A stretch of DNA of 64,000 nt from assembly GCF_002918555.1 (NCBI RefSeq), contig NZ_PQMB01000002.1, positions 1,217,169-1,281,168 on the forward strand, written 5' to 3'. A program made the position numbers and the translations under genes. Below, in pieces: positions 6,914 through 31,561 of the stretch. The number at the start of each line of letters is the position of its first letter. Position 1 is the stretch's first letter. Source of the stretch: Citrobacter amalonaticus (GTDB lineage: Bacteria; Pseudomonadota; Gammaproteobacteria; Enterobacterales; Enterobacteriaceae). Under the pieces are notes generated by a model. It had not been told where the DNA came from. It did no database searches and saw nothing but the letters and a program-made list of their open reading frames with translations.

Positions 6914-7677
6914 ATACTATCTGGGGAGCAGAGCTCCATTACGCGCCAGATTACTGGCCATTATGGCTGGTGTTAGCCGGATGTGTTGTCTTGCTGATGA
7001 TTGCAGGGCTTGTGGGACATGCGCTACTGCGCCGCCTGATGGCGCCGAAAACGGCTGAAGGGGAAGAACAACGTGATTATCTCTACTCTCTGGCGATTCG
7101 GCGTTGGCACTGGGGCAATGCGTTACTGTTTGTCCTGCTCCTGGTGAGCGGCCTGTTCGGACATTTCTCTGTTGGGCCGGTAGCCTTAATGGTACAGCTA
7201 CACACCTGGTGCGGGTTTGCACTGGTGGCCTTCTGGCTGGGGTTTGTGTTGATCAATGCAACCAGCGGCAACGGTTGTCACTACCGGGTGAAACGACAAG
7301 GGCTGACTGGTCGCTGCCTGAAGCAGACGCGTTTTTACCTCTACGGGATTATGAAAGGCGAGGCGCATCCGTTTGCGGCGACAGCAGAAAACAAGTTTAA
7401 CCCGCTGCAGCAGCTGGCTTATCTGGCCATTATGTATGCGCTGGTGCCCTTGTTGATGATGACCGGCTTATTGTGCCTTTATCCGCAGGTCGTTGGCATG
7501 GGGCCGCTGATGCTGGTCCTGCATATGGGGCTGGCCATTGTGGGACTGCTGTTTATCTGCGCACATATCTATCTCTGTACCCTCGGCGACACCCCAGGGC
7601 AAATTTTCCGTAGCATGATCGACGGTTACCACCGCCACCGTCATCACCCTACGGAAATTGCATCGCGCAAAGGCTGA
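6910..7677 (+). CDS. phsC: Thiosulfate reductase cytochrome b subunit PhsC
   Basis: Membrane anchor that takes electrons from menaquinol and passes them to PhsB; in Salmonella this endergonic step is driven by the proton-motive force. The 255-residue product has five hydrophobic segments and conserved histidines for two b-type hemes (RRWHWGN, QLHTWCG, VLHMGLA and the later AHIYLC). It ends in a histidine-rich cytoplasmic tail. The ATGA overlap with phsB shows translational coupling. A long hairpin follows about 50 bases after the stop. Confidence 0.94.
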
Positions 7678-24986: not shown

Positions 24987-25380
24987 TCGCCCCGGTGATT
25001 ATGTTCTAAATAATTCGGGTTGCAGGACAAAATGGCGTAGTCGTTTTGAACAGCGCTGCGCTGACCCCGAAGGGGCGAGGCCGAAGGCTACCTCCGGTGA
25101 GGGACAAGGATGTCCCTCATACATCCCCGGGAGCGTACACGACTCCGTGTCCGGGATGCGCGACAAATCTGTCAGAAACAGATTTGAATTTGCGGCTCAA
25201 TTCCAGTCCCAAAAGGGATGATATTGGGCCGAAAAATATCTGGTAAATAAACGATAAAAGGTTGTGATGAATATCCCAATTTGCGGTTTTCGGCTGGACA
25301 AAAGGATTAACAGCATGCTAGTTATTTAAACAAGCAAGAGAACGGATTTAAATTGAACAGTATTTAAAGCCCTCTCAGAA
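24987..25380. other. Non-coding stretch with clustered hairpins
   Basis: About 390 bases without a convincing gene. Between 25070 and 25200 several GC-rich dyads follow one another: CCCCGAAGGGG, GAGGGAC/GTCCCTC (about 25098-25117), CCCGG/CCGGG around 25125-25153, and AAATCTGT/ACAGATTT (about 25166-25183). The pattern looks like an interspersed intergenic repeat and not a gene. A 66-residue open frame across it (25046-25246) has a composition imposed by the hairpins, and I do not accept it as coding. From 25250 the sequence turns AT-rich. Confidence 0.55.
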
Positions 25381-25389: not shown

Positions 25390-25399
25390 AATTTATTTG

Positions 25400-25427
25400 A
25401 TAATGATTTGGATAACTGAATCATTAT
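25400..25427 (+). promoter_or_regulatory. Leader hairpin or operator before the aldolase-kinase operon
   Basis: A perfect 9-bp inverted repeat, ATAATGATT / AATCATTAT, with a 10-base spacer. It lies between the possible promoter and the leader terminator. If transcribed it would form the first hairpin of the leader, a candidate target for the GlpP-like protein; as DNA it could equally be a repressor site. Confidence 0.5.
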
Positions 25428-25448
25428 TAAAAGGGTACTTGATCTGAA

Positions 25449-25489
25449 AGCCCTCAGAGACGTGAGTCTCTGAGGGCTTTTTGTTTTTT
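25449..25489 (+). terminator. Strong leader terminator before the aldolase-kinase operon
   Basis: A perfect 13-bp stem (AGCCCTCAGAGAC at 25449-25461 with its complement at 25466-25478), GTGA loop, then TTTTTGTTTTTT. It ends 18 bases before the ATG of the first structural gene, with no other gene close upstream. A terminator this strong so near a start codon implies attenuation, and the second gene encodes a GlpP-family antiterminator. Confidence 0.88.
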
Positions 25490-25507
25490 CTATCTGAGGA
25501 GTAAAAA

Positions 25508-26299
25508 ATGTCTAAAGAACGTCGTCTCTCCAGGATTTTCGCAAAAGATGGTAAATCCGTTACGTTAGCACTGGATGGCTACTATTTTTCGACGAAAACA
25601 AATGGTATTGATAATACGATAAACCAGCTTCCCGCACTGGTTGAACGAGGACTGGATTGTGCGCTGGTGACCTATGGCATGTTGAAAAATTTCCGCGAAG
25701 CGTTAAATAGCGTTCCCGTCGTATTACGCGTCGATAGCACGGTCAGTATTTTTGATAATACCGTTCCCGATACGACTCCCGTCTTTTCCGTTGAAGATGC
25801 GCTGAAAGTGGCCGCTGAGGGCGTGGTCTGCATGACCTTTCCTGGTGCTTTCAACGAAGAGAAAACCCACATCATGGCGATGCAGCTGGCACAGGCGGCG
25901 GACCGCTGGAATGTCCCACTGATTGTCGAATCACTCCCATACGGTTATCCCGTCACCAGCGATGACTCAAACAATCCGGCAATCATCGCCGCCTCGGCTC
26001 GCACAGCCGTAGAGCTGGGTGCAGACGTTATCAAAACGCGCTTCACCGGAACGGCAGAAGATCGGCTGATTGTTGAAGCCGCGGGTGTGCCAGTGCTGGC
26101 ACTTGGCGGACCAAAAACCGGTATCGACGGATACTTTAAGTTTGTCCAGCACTGTATGCAGGTTGGTGCTAAAGGGGTGGCTGTGGGTCGCAACATCACG
26201 CAGGACCCACAGCCCGCAAAAGTGGTAGCAGGTCTGAATGCCATCATCCATGAAAATGCCACTGCGGAAGATGCATACAGCCTCTACATGGCTAAATAA
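25508..26299 (+). CDS. Class I aldolase of the DeoC/LacD family, LsrF-like
   Basis: A 263-residue TIM-barrel aldolase. The N-terminal RLSRIF and the C-terminal KGVAVGRNI phosphate-binding segment are those of LsrF and related FbaB-type aldolases. Lys176 in VIKTRFT is at the expected Schiff-base position. It probably cleaves, or transfers acyl from, a phosphorylated keto sugar made by the FGGY kinase two genes downstream. It is unlikely to serve autoinducer-2, because no lsrACDB or lsrR is present. The ribosome-binding site GAGGAG sits 18 bases after the leader terminator's T-run begins to end. First gene of a six-gene operon. Confidence 0.85.
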   Translation: MSKERRLSRIFAKDGKSVTLALDGYYFSTKTNGIDNTINQLPALVERGLDCALVTYGMLKNFREALNSVPVVLRVDSTVSIFDNTVPDTTPVFSVEDALKVAAEGVVCMTFPGAFNEEKTHIMAMQLAQAADRWNVPLIVESLPYGYPVTSDDSNNPAIIAASARTAVELGADVIKTRFTGTAEDRLIVEAAGVPVLALGGPKTGIDGYFKFVQHCMQVGAKGVAVGRNITQDPQPAKVVAGLNAIIHENATAEDAYSLYMAK

Positions 26300-26313
26300 C
26301 ATCGGATACTAAA

Positions 26314-26865
26314 ATGTTTTTAAATAACACCATCATTCCTTCAGTCAGAAAATATAAACACTTTGAGCAGGCATTATCCTGCCCGTCAGAATATGTCCTG
26401 TTGTCCGAAGCCAATATCGGTAATCTGCAATCACTGATTGGCAAATGTCATCAGAGTGGCAAAAAGGTACTGATTCACCTGGAGTTACTCGGTGGGTTTA
26501 AACCCGACCAGGCCGGTATCAATTTGCTGAAAAGTTATTACAAAGTTGATGGTGTTATTTCTTCCAATCTCTCGGCCCTACGCTATGCAAAAAAAGAGGG
26601 ATTGCTGACTATTTTTCGGGTGTTACTTATCGATTCACGCTCTCTGGATCAGTCAATCGATATTGTTAAACATAACCCACCGGACGCAATAGAAATCTTA
26701 CCTGCTGAATATGCCTGCCAGTGTCTGGAATTGATTAGCCGGAATTTAAAAGGCTTTGATGTGGTATTCATCGCCGGAGGCTTTGTTAAGCGGAAATACC
26801 TTGTAGAAAAAATATTCCATGCCGGTTTCAAAGGTATCACCACCAGTGAACCCGGATTATGGTGA
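26314..26865 (+). CDS. GlpP-family RNA-binding antiterminator
   Basis: A 183-residue protein matching the glycerol-3-phosphate-responsive antiterminator family (Bacillus GlpP) along its length: the opening IIPSVRKYKHFEQAL, the strand KVLIHLELLGG, DGVISSNLSAL, FRVLLIDSRSLDQS, DAIEILPAEY, and the closing VFIAGGFV with GITTSEPGLW. In Bacillus this protein binds leader RNA of glp genes and prevents termination when glycerol-3-phosphate is present. Here it follows the aldolase gene by 14 bases, in an operon that begins with a strong leader terminator, so autoregulation by antitermination is the natural reading. The ligand is unknown; a phosphorylated pathway intermediate is likely. Confidence 0.85.
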   Translation: MFLNNTIIPSVRKYKHFEQALSCPSEYVLLSEANIGNLQSLIGKCHQSGKKVLIHLELLGGFKPDQAGINLLKSYYKVDGVISSNLSALRYAKKEGLLTIFRVLLIDSRSLDQSIDIVKHNPPDAIEILPAEYACQCLELISRNLKGFDVVFIAGGFVKRKYLVEKIFHAGFKGITTSEPGLW

Positions 26866-26885
26866 CAAATGAGGAGTCCACGGTA

Positions 26886-28424
26886 ATGAAAGATGAATTT
26901 GTAATGGGGATCGACAACGGCGGAACCATCACCAAAGCGGCAATCTATGATCGTGAGGGGAGCGTCATCGCCATCGCCTCAAAATCCACACAAATGCTCA
27001 CACCAAAGGAATACCACACCGAGCGCGATATCAATGAGTTATGGACTGCTAACGTTGAAGTGATAAAAAAAGCGATCGCACAGTCAGGAATCGACGCCAG
27101 CCAGATTAAAGGTATTGCCGTGACGGGCCATGGTAACGGACTGTATCTGGTTGATGAAAAAGGTAATCCGGTACGCAACGGGATTATCTCAACGGACAGC
27201 CGGGCGAAAGCTTATGTCGAGAAATGGTACAGCGAGCCACGGTTTCTGTCTGACATTCTGCCAAAAACCATGCAGTCCATCTGGGCCGGACAACCTGTTG
27301 CACTTCTGGCCTGGCTGAAGGACAACGAACCCACAACGCTTGCTAAAGCACGCTACATTTTTATGGTGAAAGACCTGATTCGCTTTTACCTGACCGGGGA
27401 GGCTTTCCTTGAACTGACCGATATCTCAGGGACCAACTTGATCAACGTGCGCAATCGTGATTATGACGACGAGCTACTGACCTGGTGGGGACTCGCCGAT
27501 CTGCGCGACAAATTACCGCCGATCAAACGTTCCATAGACTGCTGCGGCAGGATCGGCGAGGACGTGGCCCGCCTGACCGGACTTCGCGCCGGAACGCCGG
27601 TTTCTGGCGGCGTGTTCGATATTTCGGCATCGTCCGTCGCTTCAGGTATTAACAGCCTCGACAAGCTGGCGATCATTACCGGAACCTGGAGCATTAACGA
27701 GTACGTCACCGACCATCCGGTTATCGATAAAAATCTGTTTATGACCTCCATCTATCCGATTGAAGGCAAGTGGCTGATCACCGAAGCCAGCCCGACCTCT
27801 GCCAGTAACCTTGAGTGGTTTATTAATAACTTTATGGAGAGTGACCGGGAAGCCACCGCCGCGAAAGGCTCATCGGTGTACAATCTTTGCAACACGCTGG
27901 TCTCCTCTACCACACCAGAAGAAAGTCATCTGCTGTTCTTTCCGTTTGTCTTTGGCTCAAACACCATCCCCGATGCGTCGGCGGGATTTATTGGCGTAAA
28001 CAGCTTTCATAAAAAGGCGCATTTCCTGCGCGCAATTTATGAAGGCGTGGCTTTCAGCCACCTCTATCACACCGAACGTCTGCGTAATATCAACCCAAAT
28101 TTGAGCCATACCATCCGTATCGCCGGAGGGGTCACTAATTCGCCGGTCTGGCTACAGATATTTGCCGATATTTTCCAGTCGACGCTGGAGATTGTTGACG
28201 TGAAAGAGCACGGCACACTGGGTACAGCGATGACCGCCGCGGTCATGGTGGGCTGGTTTGACGACGTCTTTGCCGCTTCCAATGAGATGGTGCATGTCTC
28301 CCGTACCGTGTCGCCAAATCCGGATAACCATAAGGTGTATCAGGACAAATACCGCCTCTACAAAAACCTGTTATCTGAAATGCAGTCGCCCTGGAAAAGC
28401 TGTAGCAATTACATCGCACATTAA
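26886..28424 (+). CDS. FGGY-family carbohydrate kinase
   Basis: ATP-dependent kinase of a free sugar or polyol, 512 residues. It has the N-terminal phosphate-1 motif (GIDNGGT, near residue 8), the glycine-rich segments GTPVSGGVFD and TGTWSINE, and the C-terminal adenosine motif IAGGVTNSPVW. It is closest in look to LyxK (L-xylulose kinase), sharing EASPTSASNLEWF and IYEGVAFSH. An in-frame ATG at 26859 overlaps the previous gene, but GAGGAGT lies before the ATG at 26886, so I use that. With the downstream IIC it poses a puzzle, since PTS uptake already phosphorylates. Confidence 0.88.
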   Translation: MKDEFVMGIDNGGTITKAAIYDREGSVIAIASKSTQMLTPKEYHTERDINELWTANVEVIKKAIAQSGIDASQIKGIAVTGHGNGLYLVDEKGNPVRNGIISTDSRAKAYVEKWYSEPRFLSDILPKTMQSIWAGQPVALLAWLKDNEPTTLAKARYIFMVKDLIRFYLTGEAFLELTDISGTNLINVRNRDYDDELLTWWGLADLRDKLPPIKRSIDCCGRIGEDVARLTGLRAGTPVSGGVFDISASSVASGINSLDKLAIITGTWSINEYVTDHPVIDKNLFMTSIYPIEGKWLITEASPTSASNLEWFINNFMESDREATAAKGSSVYNLCNTLVSSTTPEESHLLFFPFVFGSNTIPDASAGFIGVNSFHKKAHFLRAIYEGVAFSHLYHTERLRNINPNLSHTIRIAGGVTNSPVWLQIFADIFQSTLEIVDVKEHGTLGTAMTAAVMVGWFDDVFAASNEMVHVSRTVSPNPDNHKVYQDKYRLYKNLLSEMQSPWKSCSNYIAH

Positions 28425-28435
28425 GTGAGGAAAAA

Positions 28436-29197
28436 ATGGATCTGAATTTGAAAAACCGTACAGCCATCGTCACAGGTGGCGCAACAGGACTGGGCAAAGA
28501 GTTTGTCCTCACTCTGGCAAAAGAAGGGGTCAATGTCTGCTTTACCTATTTGCGTGAAGAAGAAAACCCGCAGGACCTGGTTGAAACGGTGAAATCCACA
28601 ACGAATGTCGACATCATCGCGGTAAAAACCGATCTTTCCGATGACCAGAGCCGTGAAAATCTGTTCGCCACCTGCATCAACCGACTGGGGAACGCCGACA
28701 TATTGGTCAATAACGCCGGGATCTGGCTGAGTGGCTACGTCACCGAAATCACCCGGCAGGACTGGGATACGGTGATGAACGTCAACCTGAAAGCGGTCTT
28801 CCATCTGAGTCAATTGTTTGTGAATCATTGCCTGCAAAACGTCCAGGCGGGAAGCATTTTAAATATCACTTCGCAAGCGGCATTCCATGGTTCCACAACC
28901 GGTCATGCCCATTATGCGGCCAGTAAAGCGGGCCTGGTTGCGTTCTCTATTTCTCTGGCGCGGGAAGTCGCAAAGCAGAACATCAATGTGAACAACATCG
29001 CCGTCGGGATTATGGATACCGCGATGATCCGTAAAAACATTGAACAAAATCCTGACTATTACGTCAGCCGCATTCCGGTTGGTCGGGTAGCCCAACCCCA
29101 GGAAATTGCCGACATCGGGGTCTTCATGGTTTCTCCCAAAACCCGCTATATGACGGGAGCAACTCTGGATGTCACCGGCGGTATGTTGATGCGTTAA
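28436..29197 (+). CDS. Short-chain dehydrogenase/reductase
   Basis: NAD(P)-dependent oxidoreductase, 253 residues, classical SDR. The cofactor loop TGGATGLG is at 13-20, NNAG at 91-94, and the catalytic triad is Ser145, Tyr159 and Lys163 (Y-x3-K). The end TGGMLMR is typical of this family. Within the operon it most likely oxidises a polyol or sugar hydroxyl. It starts 11 bases after the kinase. Confidence 0.9.
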   Translation: MDLNLKNRTAIVTGGATGLGKEFVLTLAKEGVNVCFTYLREEENPQDLVETVKSTTNVDIIAVKTDLSDDQSRENLFATCINRLGNADILVNNAGIWLSGYVTEITRQDWDTVMNVNLKAVFHLSQLFVNHCLQNVQAGSILNITSQAAFHGSTTGHAHYAASKAGLVAFSISLAREVAKQNINVNNIAVGIMDTAMIRKNIEQNPDYYVSRIPVGRVAQPQEIADIGVFMVSPKTRYMTGATLDVTGGMLMR

Positions 29198-29213
29198 TCT
29201 ATGGAGAATCACT

Positions 29214-30209
29214 ATGAAATGTCTGGCGATTGCCGATCTTTTTATCAATGCCGCAATGATGGACGCCGGTCTGAAGGCGCTAAGAGATAAAGGAATCGAG
29301 GTTGAAGTACGCGAATGGTCACATGAGTCAGTTGAGAAATTACAGGAGGATAATCTGCGTGTTGAGCAGGAAGGTTCGGAAGCCGTGGCATTACCTGATA
29401 CCCTGCTCCAGGGGGCAGACAATGTGGAAATTCTGATCACCCAGTTTGCCCCGGTTAACACAGCGGTCTTCGATAAGCTGCCGCAGCTAAAATACGTGGG
29501 TGTTCTGCGCGGCGGTGTGGAAAACGTTAATCAGCAGGTGGCAAAGGCGCGCGGTATTGAGGTGATAAACACGCCAGGGCGCAATGCCCGCAGCGTCGCC
29601 GAGTTTACCGTCGGGATGATCCTGGCGGAAATGCGTAATATCGCCCGTTCTCACGATGCGCTACGGGACAAATTCTGGCGTAAGGATAGCCCGAATCATC
29701 AGGCAATCCCTGAGCTGGGTGGTAAAGTCGTGGGTCTGGTAGGTCTGGGACATATCGCCCAACTGGTTGCCGGTTTTCTTAGCGGCTTTGGCAGCGAAAT
29801 ACTCTTTTACGATAAGTACGTGGAGAGTCACGATGGCTATGAAAAAGTCGATTCACTGGATGAACTGCTGCAACGCGTCGATGTGGTATCGCTGCATGCC
29901 CGCCTGACGCCGGAGACAGAGAACCTGATCAATGCGCACCATTTTGCACTGATGAAAAACAGCGCCATTATTGTCAACACCGCGCGCTCGGGATTAATCA
30001 ATGAAGGCGATCTGATTGCGGCGCTCAAAGCCGGGGAAATTATGGGGGCGGCATTAGATACCTTTGATGACGAACCACTACCGGATGACAGCGCGTTTTA
30101 TACGCTGAATAATGTCACCATTACGCCGCATATTGCGGGAAGTACTATTGATGCTTTTAGTAACTCACCAAAACTATTTTCTGAGATTCTGTTGAAGAAA
30201 CTCAGTTAA
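29214..30209 (+). CDS. D-isomer-specific 2-hydroxyacid dehydrogenase
   Basis: NAD-dependent enzyme of 331 residues in the phosphoglycerate-dehydrogenase superfamily. The Rossmann motif is GLVGLGHIAQ (about residues 178-187). The catalytic arginine is in LHARLTPET, the glutamate in DTFDDEPLP and the histidine in TPHIAGST. It lacks the C-terminal ACT domain of SerA, so serine biosynthesis is not its job. It probably reduces or oxidises a keto- or hydroxy-acid end product of the operon's pathway. A 90-base gap with a hairpin separates it from the transporter gene. Confidence 0.88.
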   Translation: MKCLAIADLFINAAMMDAGLKALRDKGIEVEVREWSHESVEKLQEDNLRVEQEGSEAVALPDTLLQGADNVEILITQFAPVNTAVFDKLPQLKYVGVLRGGVENVNQQVAKARGIEVINTPGRNARSVAEFTVGMILAEMRNIARSHDALRDKFWRKDSPNHQAIPELGGKVVGLVGLGHIAQLVAGFLSGFGSEILFYDKYVESHDGYEKVDSLDELLQRVDVVSLHARLTPETENLINAHHFALMKNSAIIVNTARSGLINEGDLIAALKAGEIMGAALDTFDDEPLPDDSAFYTLNNVTITPHIAGSTIDAFSNSPKLFSEILLKKLS

Positions 30210-30246
30210 ATATTAAAAAGAATCATTAAAGGTTTTTATACGGCCC

Positions 30247-30274
30247 ATTGGGCACGGGTTCGCTCGCGCCCAAT
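30247..30274 (+). other. Intercistronic hairpin before the IIC gene
   Basis: ATTGGGC (30247-30253) and GCCCAAT (30268-30274) form a 7-bp stem with a GC-rich 14-base loop and no T-run. It may adjust the transporter's expression relative to the enzymes. Confidence 0.5.
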
Positions 30275-30298
30275 TCGCCCGCCTTTTAAGGAATCATT

Positions 30299-31561
30299 AT
30301 GGATATTATCAACAGTATTATTAGTCTGGGGGCATCAGTGATGATGCCAGTAATATTCTTTATTATCGCACTTTGCTTTGGGGTAAAAATCGGCACAGCA
30401 TTTAAAGCAGGGATGCTGGTCGGTATCGGCTTTGAAGGTGTCGGTCTGGTAATCGGTCTGCTGCTGACCAACCTGGGTCCGGCATCACAGGCTATGGTTG
30501 AGCGTATTGGCCTGCACCTGACGGTAGTGGATACCGGCTGGCCTACCGCCTCCACTATCGGCTGGGGCTCCCCGCTGATGCTGCCGGTGGTGGTTGGTTT
30601 CATTATCATTAACCTTGCCATGCTGCTGCTCAAATTAACCAAAACGGTGAATATCGATATTTTCAATTACTGGATATTCCTGATTATGGGATCGGTCGTC
30701 TATGCCGGAACCGGAAATTACTGGCTCTCCGTAGGTATAACCTTCGGTATATTTATCCTCACCTTGCTGGCAGCGGATCTCACTGCACCTTACTTACAAA
30801 AAAACTATAATCTGAAAGGGATCTCTTTCCCTCATCTTACCTGTATAGCCTATGTGCCTTTTGGCATTGCCTGTAATTACATTATTGATAAGATTCCCCT
30901 CATCAATAAAATCAATTTTGATCCGGAAAGCATTAACAAAAAATTCGGCGTATTTGGCGAACCGCTAACGCTGGGCTTTGTGCTGGGACTGCTGCTGGCA
31001 TTCCTCGCGGGATATGATGTCTCGGCTGCGGTATCGCTGGCTATTAAAGTCTCTGCTGCCATGCTATTGCTGCCGAAAATGATCGAGATTCTGGTACAGG
31101 GGCTGCTGATTGTTCGCGACGCAGCAGAAGCAAAACTGAAGGCCAAATTCCCCGATCGTGATTTCTATATCGGTATGGATACCGCACTCCTGATCGGTGA
31201 ACCATCCGTACTGGCCACCGGGCTGCTGTTAATTCCCATGGCGGTAGTGCTGTCAATTATTCTGCCGGGTAACCGCGTGCTGCCGTTTGTTGATCTGGCC
31301 TCCCTCATGTTTTTGCTGGCCATGGTCACGCCATTCTGCAAACGCAACATGTTCCGAATGTTTGTTACCGGCACGCTGATTGTGACCTGTATCTTGTACG
31401 TCGGGACCGACATTTCGAAGGAGTATACGCAAGCGGCAATAAACTCCAGTATTCCGGTGCCAGAAGGGATGTCTGAGATTACCAATATTGTCGGCGGCGC
31501 TACCACACCAGTGGGCTGGCTGGCGGTAAAATTTGGTGAGTTTTTCGGTACTGCGCCTTAA
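30299..31561 (+). CDS. PTS galactitol-type IIC membrane component, no IIA/IIB nearby
   Basis: A 420-residue membrane protein with about ten hydrophobic helices. It has the galactitol-IIC (GatC/SgcC) hallmarks, including FEGVGLVIGLL near the N-terminus and the IGEPSVLATGLL motif. It would translocate a polyol or pentitol. No IIA or IIB gene exists in the operon or anywhere in the window. It therefore borrows subunits encoded elsewhere, or works as a facilitator whose substrate is phosphorylated by the FGGY kinase in the same operon. A hairpin follows the stop. Confidence 0.87.
   Translation: MDIINSIISLGASVMMPVIFFIIALCFGVKIGTAFKAGMLVGIGFEGVGLVIGLLLTNLGPASQAMVERIGLHLTVVDTGWPTASTIGWGSPLMLPVVVGFIIINLAMLLLKLTKTVNIDIFNYWIFLIMGSVVYAGTGNYWLSVGITFGIFILTLLAADLTAPYLQKNYNLKGISFPHLTCIAYVPFGIACNYIIDKIPLINKINFDPESINKKFGVFGEPLTLGFVLGLLLAFLAGYDVSAAVSLAIKVSAAMLLLPKMIEILVQGLLIVRDAAEAKLKAKFPDRDFYIGMDTALLIGEPSVLATGLLLIPMAVVLSIILPGNRVLPFVDLASLMFLLAMVTPFCKRNMFRMFVTGTLIVTCILYVGTDISKEYTQAAINSSIPVPEGMSEITNIVGGATTPVGWLAVKFGEFFGTAP

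Follow-up and report, generated by a model that had tools for sequence, protein, structure and literature searches.

The window analysed here, a stretch of 64,000 nucleotides of Citrobacter amalonaticus DNA, contains a six-gene operon (25508-31561) encoding, in this order, an aldolase, a GlpP-like protein, an FGGY kinase, an SDR, a 2-hydroxyacid dehydrogenase and an EIIC component (Table 1). The Pfam match of the kinase was made on a longer frame (26859-28424), and the start listed for its gene was taken from comparison with E. coli SE11. Pfam searches of the six operon proteins detected neither a DNA-binding domain nor a BglG/SacY/LicT-type protein, and no glycerol genes were found by Pfam in the operon.

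Table 1. Features of the operon and its leader (window positions), and of leaders of other GlpP clusters (positions in the respective locus).
Feature	Position	Strand	Basis or remark
CRP-like site TGTGA-N6-TCCCA	25263..25278	+	putative; similar block in 15/16 aligned leaders, absent in Providencia (L019)
Putative promoter: TGGACA 25295-25300, TGCTAGTTAT 25316-25325	25295..25325	+	similar block in 15/16 aligned leaders, absent in Providencia (L019)
Leader hairpin 1 (HP1), GAGA..GG..TTTAAAT / ATTTAAA..CC..TCTC	25338..25376	+	covariation, single-sequence folds
Leader hairpin 2 (HP2)	25399..25428	+	13 pairs; folds singly in 16/16 leaders
Candidate GlpP antiterminator (RAT-like): AGGGT, 13-nt loop ACTTGATCTGAAA, GCCCT	25432..25454	+	overlaps terminator 5' arm
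Intrinsic terminator hairpin	25446..25481	+	16 pairs, 4-nt loop; T-rich tail to 25489
Ribosome-binding site GAGGAG	25496..25501	+	sequence; 3' of terminator
Gene 1, DeoC/LacD-type class I aldolase	25508..26299	+	PF01791, 74 bits
Gene 2, GlpP-family protein, proposed antiterminator	26314..26865	+	PF04309, 157 bits; PDB 3kts, E 5.6e-24
FGGY-family sugar kinase	26886..28424	+	PF00370/PF02782
SDR dehydrogenase	28436..29197	+	Pfam
D-2-hydroxyacid dehydrogenase	29214..30209	+	Pfam
Galactitol-type EIIC permease component	30299..31561	+	PF03611, 241 bits
E. coli K-12 antiterminator-terminator leaders	L126, about 7298-7363; 7505-7569	minus; plus	both elements present
Streptomyces clavuligerus plasmid antiterminator motif	L122, 4724-4790		cluster with SDR, FAD oxidoreductase, FGGY kinase

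The aldolase gene is preceded by a leader with an intrinsic terminator, whose T-rich tail (given as TGTTTTTTCT by the terminator scan) runs to 25489, 18 nt short of the ATG at 25508. An earlier note on this DNA had placed a perfect 13-bp terminator 18 bases before the first gene; the distance is correct and the terminator is real, but its stem is longer, comprising 16 bp. The 148-nt leader folds 6.28 standard deviations below shuffled sequences, none of 200 shuffles being as stable. The block at 25263-25278 was called CRP-like by comparison with the CRP consensus. The sigma-70 scan did not list the promoter-like block at 25295-25325, listed no promoter-like site between the terminator and the aldolase gene, and gave a single match within HP2 (25397-25424), shuffled sequences yielding matches at least as often. 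No Rfam family matched in the window at the gathering score. A dispersed intergenic repeat (25040-25200), with 43 matches in the genome including itself, lies upstream of the leader and outside it.

To place the leader among relatives, we combined a protein search of a genome collection (11 further loci), a genome search that added one more distinct locus (L007), and a DNA search of 5426 genomes that found the same operon in three E. coli strains. Ahead of this operon the leader is also found at 15 further loci, in Klebsiella, Entomohabitans, Enterobacter, Erwinia, Providencia and E. coli among others. The same terminator, with the stem GCCCTCAGAGA / T(C/T)TCTGAGGGC, precedes the same aldolase in all 16 loci, the window included, so that the terminator-gene pairing that the earlier note had proposed to look for in related genomes was found at every operon locus examined. 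(Another locus, L064, has the same terminator, yet is outside the 16.) The exact pattern of both terminator arms occurs in only one of 394 genomes sampled from the order, namely the source genome itself, and this, together with its presence in all 16 operon loci, argues that the terminator is not a product of chance. Two loci (L008 and L009) duplicate L011 and the window and were therefore omitted when the leaders were aligned, and L019, L023 and L024 were left out of the 13-leader structure alignment.

In nine relatives the terminator 5' arm is identical to that of the window at 13-14 of 14 positions, and the fourfold-degenerate sites of the aldolase gene are 31-58% identical. DNA similarity to these relatives sets in no earlier than 25233 and, in some of them, as late as 25446. 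In the three cases annotated or inspected, different genes lie upstream: the window encodes there a small protein whose start is lipoprotein-like, E. coli SE11 a VOC protein and Klebsiella a zinc-ribbon protein. Because the terminator is kept before the same aldolase while the upstream DNA and the upstream genes differ, this comparison identifies it as an element of the operon leader and not as the end of an upstream gene. The possibility that an upstream gene or the repeat owns the terminator was rejected on the same grounds, and the statement of the earlier note that no upstream gene needs it holds. The sequence kept in all 16 loci is (A)GGGTnn(G/T)TGAnnnG plus the terminator, the first A being G in L007. 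No further copies of the window leader motif were found in the genome itself when up to 3 mismatches were allowed. In Erwinia persicina (L021, 7001-7548) the GlpP-like gene matches in two frames and has one base fewer than its relatives, a frameshift that lies either in the strain or in the assembly; this case speaks against control of the operon by the protein.

Two hairpins precede the terminator. HP1, which was absent from the earlier account, contains compensatory changes: 5 of its 13 pairs are changed on both sides among 13 leaders, counts that are rough because L021 and some other sequences are misaligned in HP1. It folds singly in 15 of the 16 leaders, the exception being Providencia. 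The earlier note had described a 9-bp hairpin at 25400-25427 and had proposed it as a candidate binding site. The hairpin exists, with 13 pairs or more around 25399-25428 (HP2), and 2 of 13 pairs have changes on both sides among the 13 leaders. Its role as the binding site is not supported, as its sequence is replaced in Providencia (L019), while 25432-25460 is kept; the unrelated Providencia sequence still folds as a hairpin at the place of HP2. In the terminator, 1 of the 14 counted pairs is doubly changed and 10 never vary in the 13 leaders. For the whole 13-leader structure, the number of doubly changed pairs was reached by 2 of 500 shuffles; sliding the structure by +1 gave 7 such pairs versus 8 observed, and 54% of cells paired versus 94%. 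HP1 and HP2 are extra structured parts that may contribute to RNA stability or pausing. The 3' side of HP1 contains a stretch, AAAGCCCTCTCAGA at 25366-25379, that nearly repeats the terminator 5' arm; aligned relatives have other letters there, and the near-repeat is probably due to chance or recent drift.

That the second gene encodes a clear member of the GlpP family, as the earlier note had stated, is borne out by domain, homology and fold. The product of 26314-26865 matches PF04309 over positions 1-173 of 173, far above the cut-off of 27 bits, and this is its only Pfam match; the CAT and PRD domains, which characterize the BglG/LicT family, are absent. No NCBIfam model matches it at E 0.001. 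Its homology to the Listeria GlpP of PDB entry 3kts is accompanied by an AlphaFold model (pLDDT 90.5), whose fold matches 3kts with a TM score of 0.89-0.90 and 1vkf with 0.83-0.86, by query length. In an alignment of 17 GlpP-family members, which does not include B. subtilis GlpP, nine residues are invariant. The window protein is 26-31% identical to the other GlpP proteins aligned, and this low identity may mean that its ligand and its RNA code differ from theirs. The five window-type members of the 17-protein alignment have HxEL where the other 12 have D, and LPA where 11 of those 12 have G, with four extra residues after the motif. The changes from HxDL to HxEL and from LPG to LPA hint at a different ligand, one that is not glycerol-3-phosphate.

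GlpP-family proteins are not confined to the window type. In a sample of the GTDB family, 40 of the 295 genomes contain PF04309 at a score above its cut-off, and the window type of the protein is present in 4 of 392 genomes. A class sample of 320 other genomes gave no full-length match and only one match over the cut-off, obtained with joined fragments; in the samples used, the GlpP family is thus seen within the class only in this GTDB family. E. coli K-12 itself encodes a member, ygcP, annotated as 'putative anti-terminator regulatory protein'. The view of the earlier note that antitermination by GlpP is unusual in this order is therefore only partly right, as the rarity that it implied is contradicted by the domain counts and by K-12 ygcP. 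We fetched 20 regions from the higher-scoring group and added an E. coli record (L065), giving 21 loci; ygcW lies beside the GlpP gene in 20 of them, and we refer to these loci as YgcP clusters. Such a cluster is also present in the genome from which the window derives (L067), and YgcP is 27-28% identical to the window protein. The GlpP-family matches of G097, G230, G253 (second copy) and G304 score 169-178 bits, below the YgcP group (203-217) and above the window type (151-157), and are possibly a third enterobacterial group.

The leaders of the YgcP clusters contain a recurrent element. Across 18 of the 21 YgcP loci there are 33 elements in which a T-run follows a GAGA-N3/4-GAGAAA loop, 18 of them before ygcW and 15 before the divergent yqcE; this count required only the loop and the T-run. 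Stems were counted for 30 of the 33 (28 distinct), and three elements (L068 minus, L077 minus and L081 plus) were excluded from the stem count, their 5' arm being further from the loop. The stem, AGTTACY/RGTAACT, has a 3' arm that doubles as the terminator 5' arm. It is 95.9% paired and contains 13 doubly changed cells, GC-AU in 6, UA-CG in 6 and AU-GC in 1. Among 500 shuffles, none attained the observed covariation score, count of doubly changed cells or percentage paired. The count of doubly changed pairs (3), by contrast, was attained in 85 shuffles and in one slid version, and every shuffle attained the number of pair types; it should be noted that related sequences can exceed shuffles in such tests without any structure. 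The slid versions of the stem were at most 54% paired and scored at most 0.110, versus 0.262. Alignment column 30 pairs with its antiterminator partner in 28 of 28 sequences and, in the register counted, with its terminator partner in 7 of 28, for which reason the ygc antiterminator seems to be selected for itself.

Of 5426 E. coli genomes, 4998 contain the 326-bp region between ygcW and yqcE with a coverage of at least 80%, and YgcP would act on both leaders, a regulon predicted for most E. coli; E. coli K-12 seems to have such a GlpP-type regulon. A literature search turned up no work in which YgcP or the ygcW leader is described as an antitermination system, although such a search does not prove that it is unpublished. 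In the genome of the window the ygc-type pattern matched exactly only at the ygcW leader, and looser matching gave 6 and 11 hits on the two strands, no excess over the control (17 and 12). Compared with L069, two other loci of its genus (L073 and L076) have a ygcW-yqcE gap that is smaller by about 335 bp: the two inverted terminators, which are nearly identical, have fused there, with the loss of both promoters and both antiterminators.

Related elements are present in other phyla. The Cytobacillus glpF and glpD leaders and the Paenibacillus glpP-glpK and glpD leaders all (4/4) contain GAGA-N4-GAGA, and the stem, 3-5 pairs long, overlaps the terminator arm. In a GlpP cluster of Streptomyces clavuligerus, AGTTACT-AGAGACCAGAGAAC-AGTAACT and a terminator lie some 300 nt upstream of the SDR start as annotated. 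The Enterococcus GlpP clusters L060 and L125 have similar elements, and SDR and oxidoreductase or transporter genes occur in these and in the Streptomyces cluster. The occurrence of E. coli-like motifs in GlpP clusters of other phyla suggests that the protein and its RNA have spread horizontally together. The Acetoanaerobium region (L123) gave a loop-like match, at the level of the loop only, and no qualifying motif was found in the fetched regions of Listeria (L058), Fusobacterium (L063), Vescimonas (L066) and Planococcus (L124); the Listeria result says little, because no glp operon is annotated beside glpP in the fetched region. Of 40 GAGA-N4-GAGA occurrences in 28 loci, 31 qualified, by criteria for GlpP-cluster leaders that were widened stepwise after the sequences had been seen. 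A descriptor search for the motif passed over one of the two E. coli leaders as well as the elements of Cytobacillus, Paenibacillus, Streptomyces and Peptoclostridium, so that the descriptor is not a sensitive detector.

The window leader contains a site of the same layout and spacing as the other GlpP-cluster leaders: AGGGT at 25432-25436 can pair with GCCCT at 25450-25454. The five pairs are present in the minimum-energy fold of the 23-mer in all 14 leaders tested (-4.1 to -6.0 kcal/mol), and the pairs are invariant, with zero covariation. Hairpins of at least 4 pairs overlap the terminator in 7 of 14 terminators of random sequence, and the pairing in the window therefore proves nothing by itself. 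The loop reads GTGA-N3-GAA in 10 of 14 leaders and TTGA-N3-GAA in 2, and resembles GAGA-N3-GAGA, the yqcE loop of E. coli, with the same N3 spacing. The window does not contain the loop motif in its strict form, GAG-N4/5-GAG; it was matched only after the pattern had been relaxed, and the relaxed pattern misses L018, one of the five window-type leaders run. When the terminator arm is paired with upstream RNA, the best duplex takes in AGGG in 11 of 14 leaders and lies elsewhere in the window, L007 and L011; because of this result, we regard it as an evenly balanced call whether 25432-25454 is the exact antiterminator site, as a diverged version of the shared design. The sequence CAGAGA at 25455-25460, in the upper terminator 5' arm, is invariant though the proposed antiterminator does not need it. 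The upper terminator stem varies in the ygc leaders, unlike in the window type. The conserved terminator arm thus extends beyond the proposed antiterminator, a feature for which the antitermination model does not account. What supports antitermination in the window is that the Firmicute glp leaders and the ygcW and yqcE leaders share the stem, the GAGA-N3/4-GAGA loop and the overlap with the terminator, and that the ygc leaders show covariation.

Considering the evidence as a whole, we are fairly confident that the leader is a conditional terminator that would be lifted by the GlpP-like protein together with a sugar phosphate. In the proposed mechanism, RNA polymerase that starts from a promoter near 25295-25325 would normally stop at the terminator tail (25478-25489). 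The substrate of the operon would be phosphorylated, most likely by the operon's own FGGY kinase, and the GlpP-like protein would bind the resulting sugar phosphate. The protein with its presumed ligand would then grip the nascent RNA at 25432-25454 and hold the AGGGT/GCCCT hairpin, which would take the first bases of the terminator 5' arm, such that the terminator could not form. The predicted read-through would result in transcription of all six genes, including that of the GlpP-like protein. The earlier note had proposed that the operon controls itself by antitermination; the family and fold of the protein, the conservation of the leader and the design shared with other leaders support a conditional terminator and make autoregulation probable. 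A gene for an FGGY kinase lies close to that of the GlpP protein in the window, in all 21 ygc loci, in Streptomyces, and in Cytobacillus and Paenibacillus, where the enzyme is a glycerol kinase; none is annotated in the fetched GlpP regions of Listeria, Enterococcus, Peptoclostridium, Vescimonas and Planococcus. We infer that the window protein senses the product of the operon's kinase.

The same mechanism could operate with a different contact, in that the protein blocks the terminator directly by recognising one of the two hairpins (HP1 or HP2) or the terminator 5' arm as a whole. Both hairpins are structurally conserved, the conservation of the terminator arm runs to its loop, the stem at 25432-25454 lacks covariation, and the best upstream partner of the window's terminator arm lies in the 3' side of HP1. 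We nevertheless consider recognition of these other parts rather unlikely, as Providencia, which is without HP1 and has an unrelated sequence at HP2, keeps the operon and the terminator, and as the ygc and Firmicute antiterminators adjoin the terminator. If the leader instead gave rise to a stand-alone small RNA that owns the terminator, the conserved promoter-like block, the structured RNA and the strong terminator would all be expected; however, the leader is found only before this operon, both in the 394-genome sample of the order and in the genome itself, it has no Rfam match and no promoter-like site was listed between the terminator and the first gene, which makes this explanation improbable.

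Still less credence is due to the idea that a repressor or activator uses the palindrome as its DNA operator, the T-run being incidental. The near invariance of the arms in sequence is what one sees in operators, but 3 of 13 leaders have a symmetric AU-to-GC change at the base of the stem, the T-rich tail is on one side only in 16 of 16, the length of the loop varies, and the six operon proteins have no DNA-binding domain that was found. Attenuation by a translated leader peptide, instead of a protein, seems highly implausible: in several relatives a peptide like VNRKPSE could be translated from a GTG that comes after AAGGG, but a stop follows after two codons in the window and L021, the spacing between AAGGG and GTG is only 3 nt, and the frame of the ATG in HP2 stops after 2-3 codons in L013, L022 and L007. 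Antitermination by the GlpP-like protein remains the reading that we prefer.

Three known or proposed systems invite comparison. Antiterminators of the BglG/SacY/LicT type have an unrelated protein fold and are controlled by PTS phosphorylation. The system proposed here resembles them and their RAT sites in that a hairpin held by a protein would overlap the terminator 5' arm, and differs from them in that its proposed antiterminator protein contains PF04309 only. The YgcP system of E. coli K-12 (ygcN-ygcO-ygcP; ygcW-U-S-R-Q; yqcE-ygcE) is similar in having a cluster with an FGGY kinase and an SDR, and a terminator with an overlapping antiterminator; unlike the window, it has a shorter leader, a GAGA-N3/4-GAGA loop and two presumed target operons. 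With GlpP of B. subtilis, which acts on the glpD, glpFK and glpT leaders, the window shares the protein family and the leader terminator, whereas the window operon lacks glycerol genes, its loop is diverged, its leader is longer and contains HP1 and HP2, and its ligand is probably not glycerol-3-phosphate. For B. subtilis, a GlpP binding site and a leader terminator in the 5' UTR after the promoter are documented, and GlpP is described as needed for induction (PMC9604022).

In summary, what the earlier note observed holds, and the mechanism is likely. The window system is a diverged representative of a known type, one that is more widespread in this group of bacteria than the earlier note had thought. 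Somewhat more tentatively, there may be two parallel GlpP-type systems in enterobacteria, YgcP serving the ygcW and yqcE operons and the window protein its own operon. In the second system both halves of the code would have changed (the loop, TGA-N3-G versus GAGA-N3/4-GAGA, and the pocket, HxEL and LPA), such that the two paralogues of one cell would each respond, without cross-talk, to a different sugar phosphate, made by the FGGY kinase of the respective cluster. If true, two paralogous antiterminator-leader pairs within one cell could be used to study how RNA specificity diverges, and a testable RNA motif would become available for the GlpP family. The sugar phosphate that triggers read-through would also give a handle on the substrates of uncharacterised sugar operons. 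Antitermination by GlpP, which is known best from Bacillus, would then also control operons in Klebsiella, Erwinia, Providencia and, via the uncharacterised YgcP, E. coli K-12.
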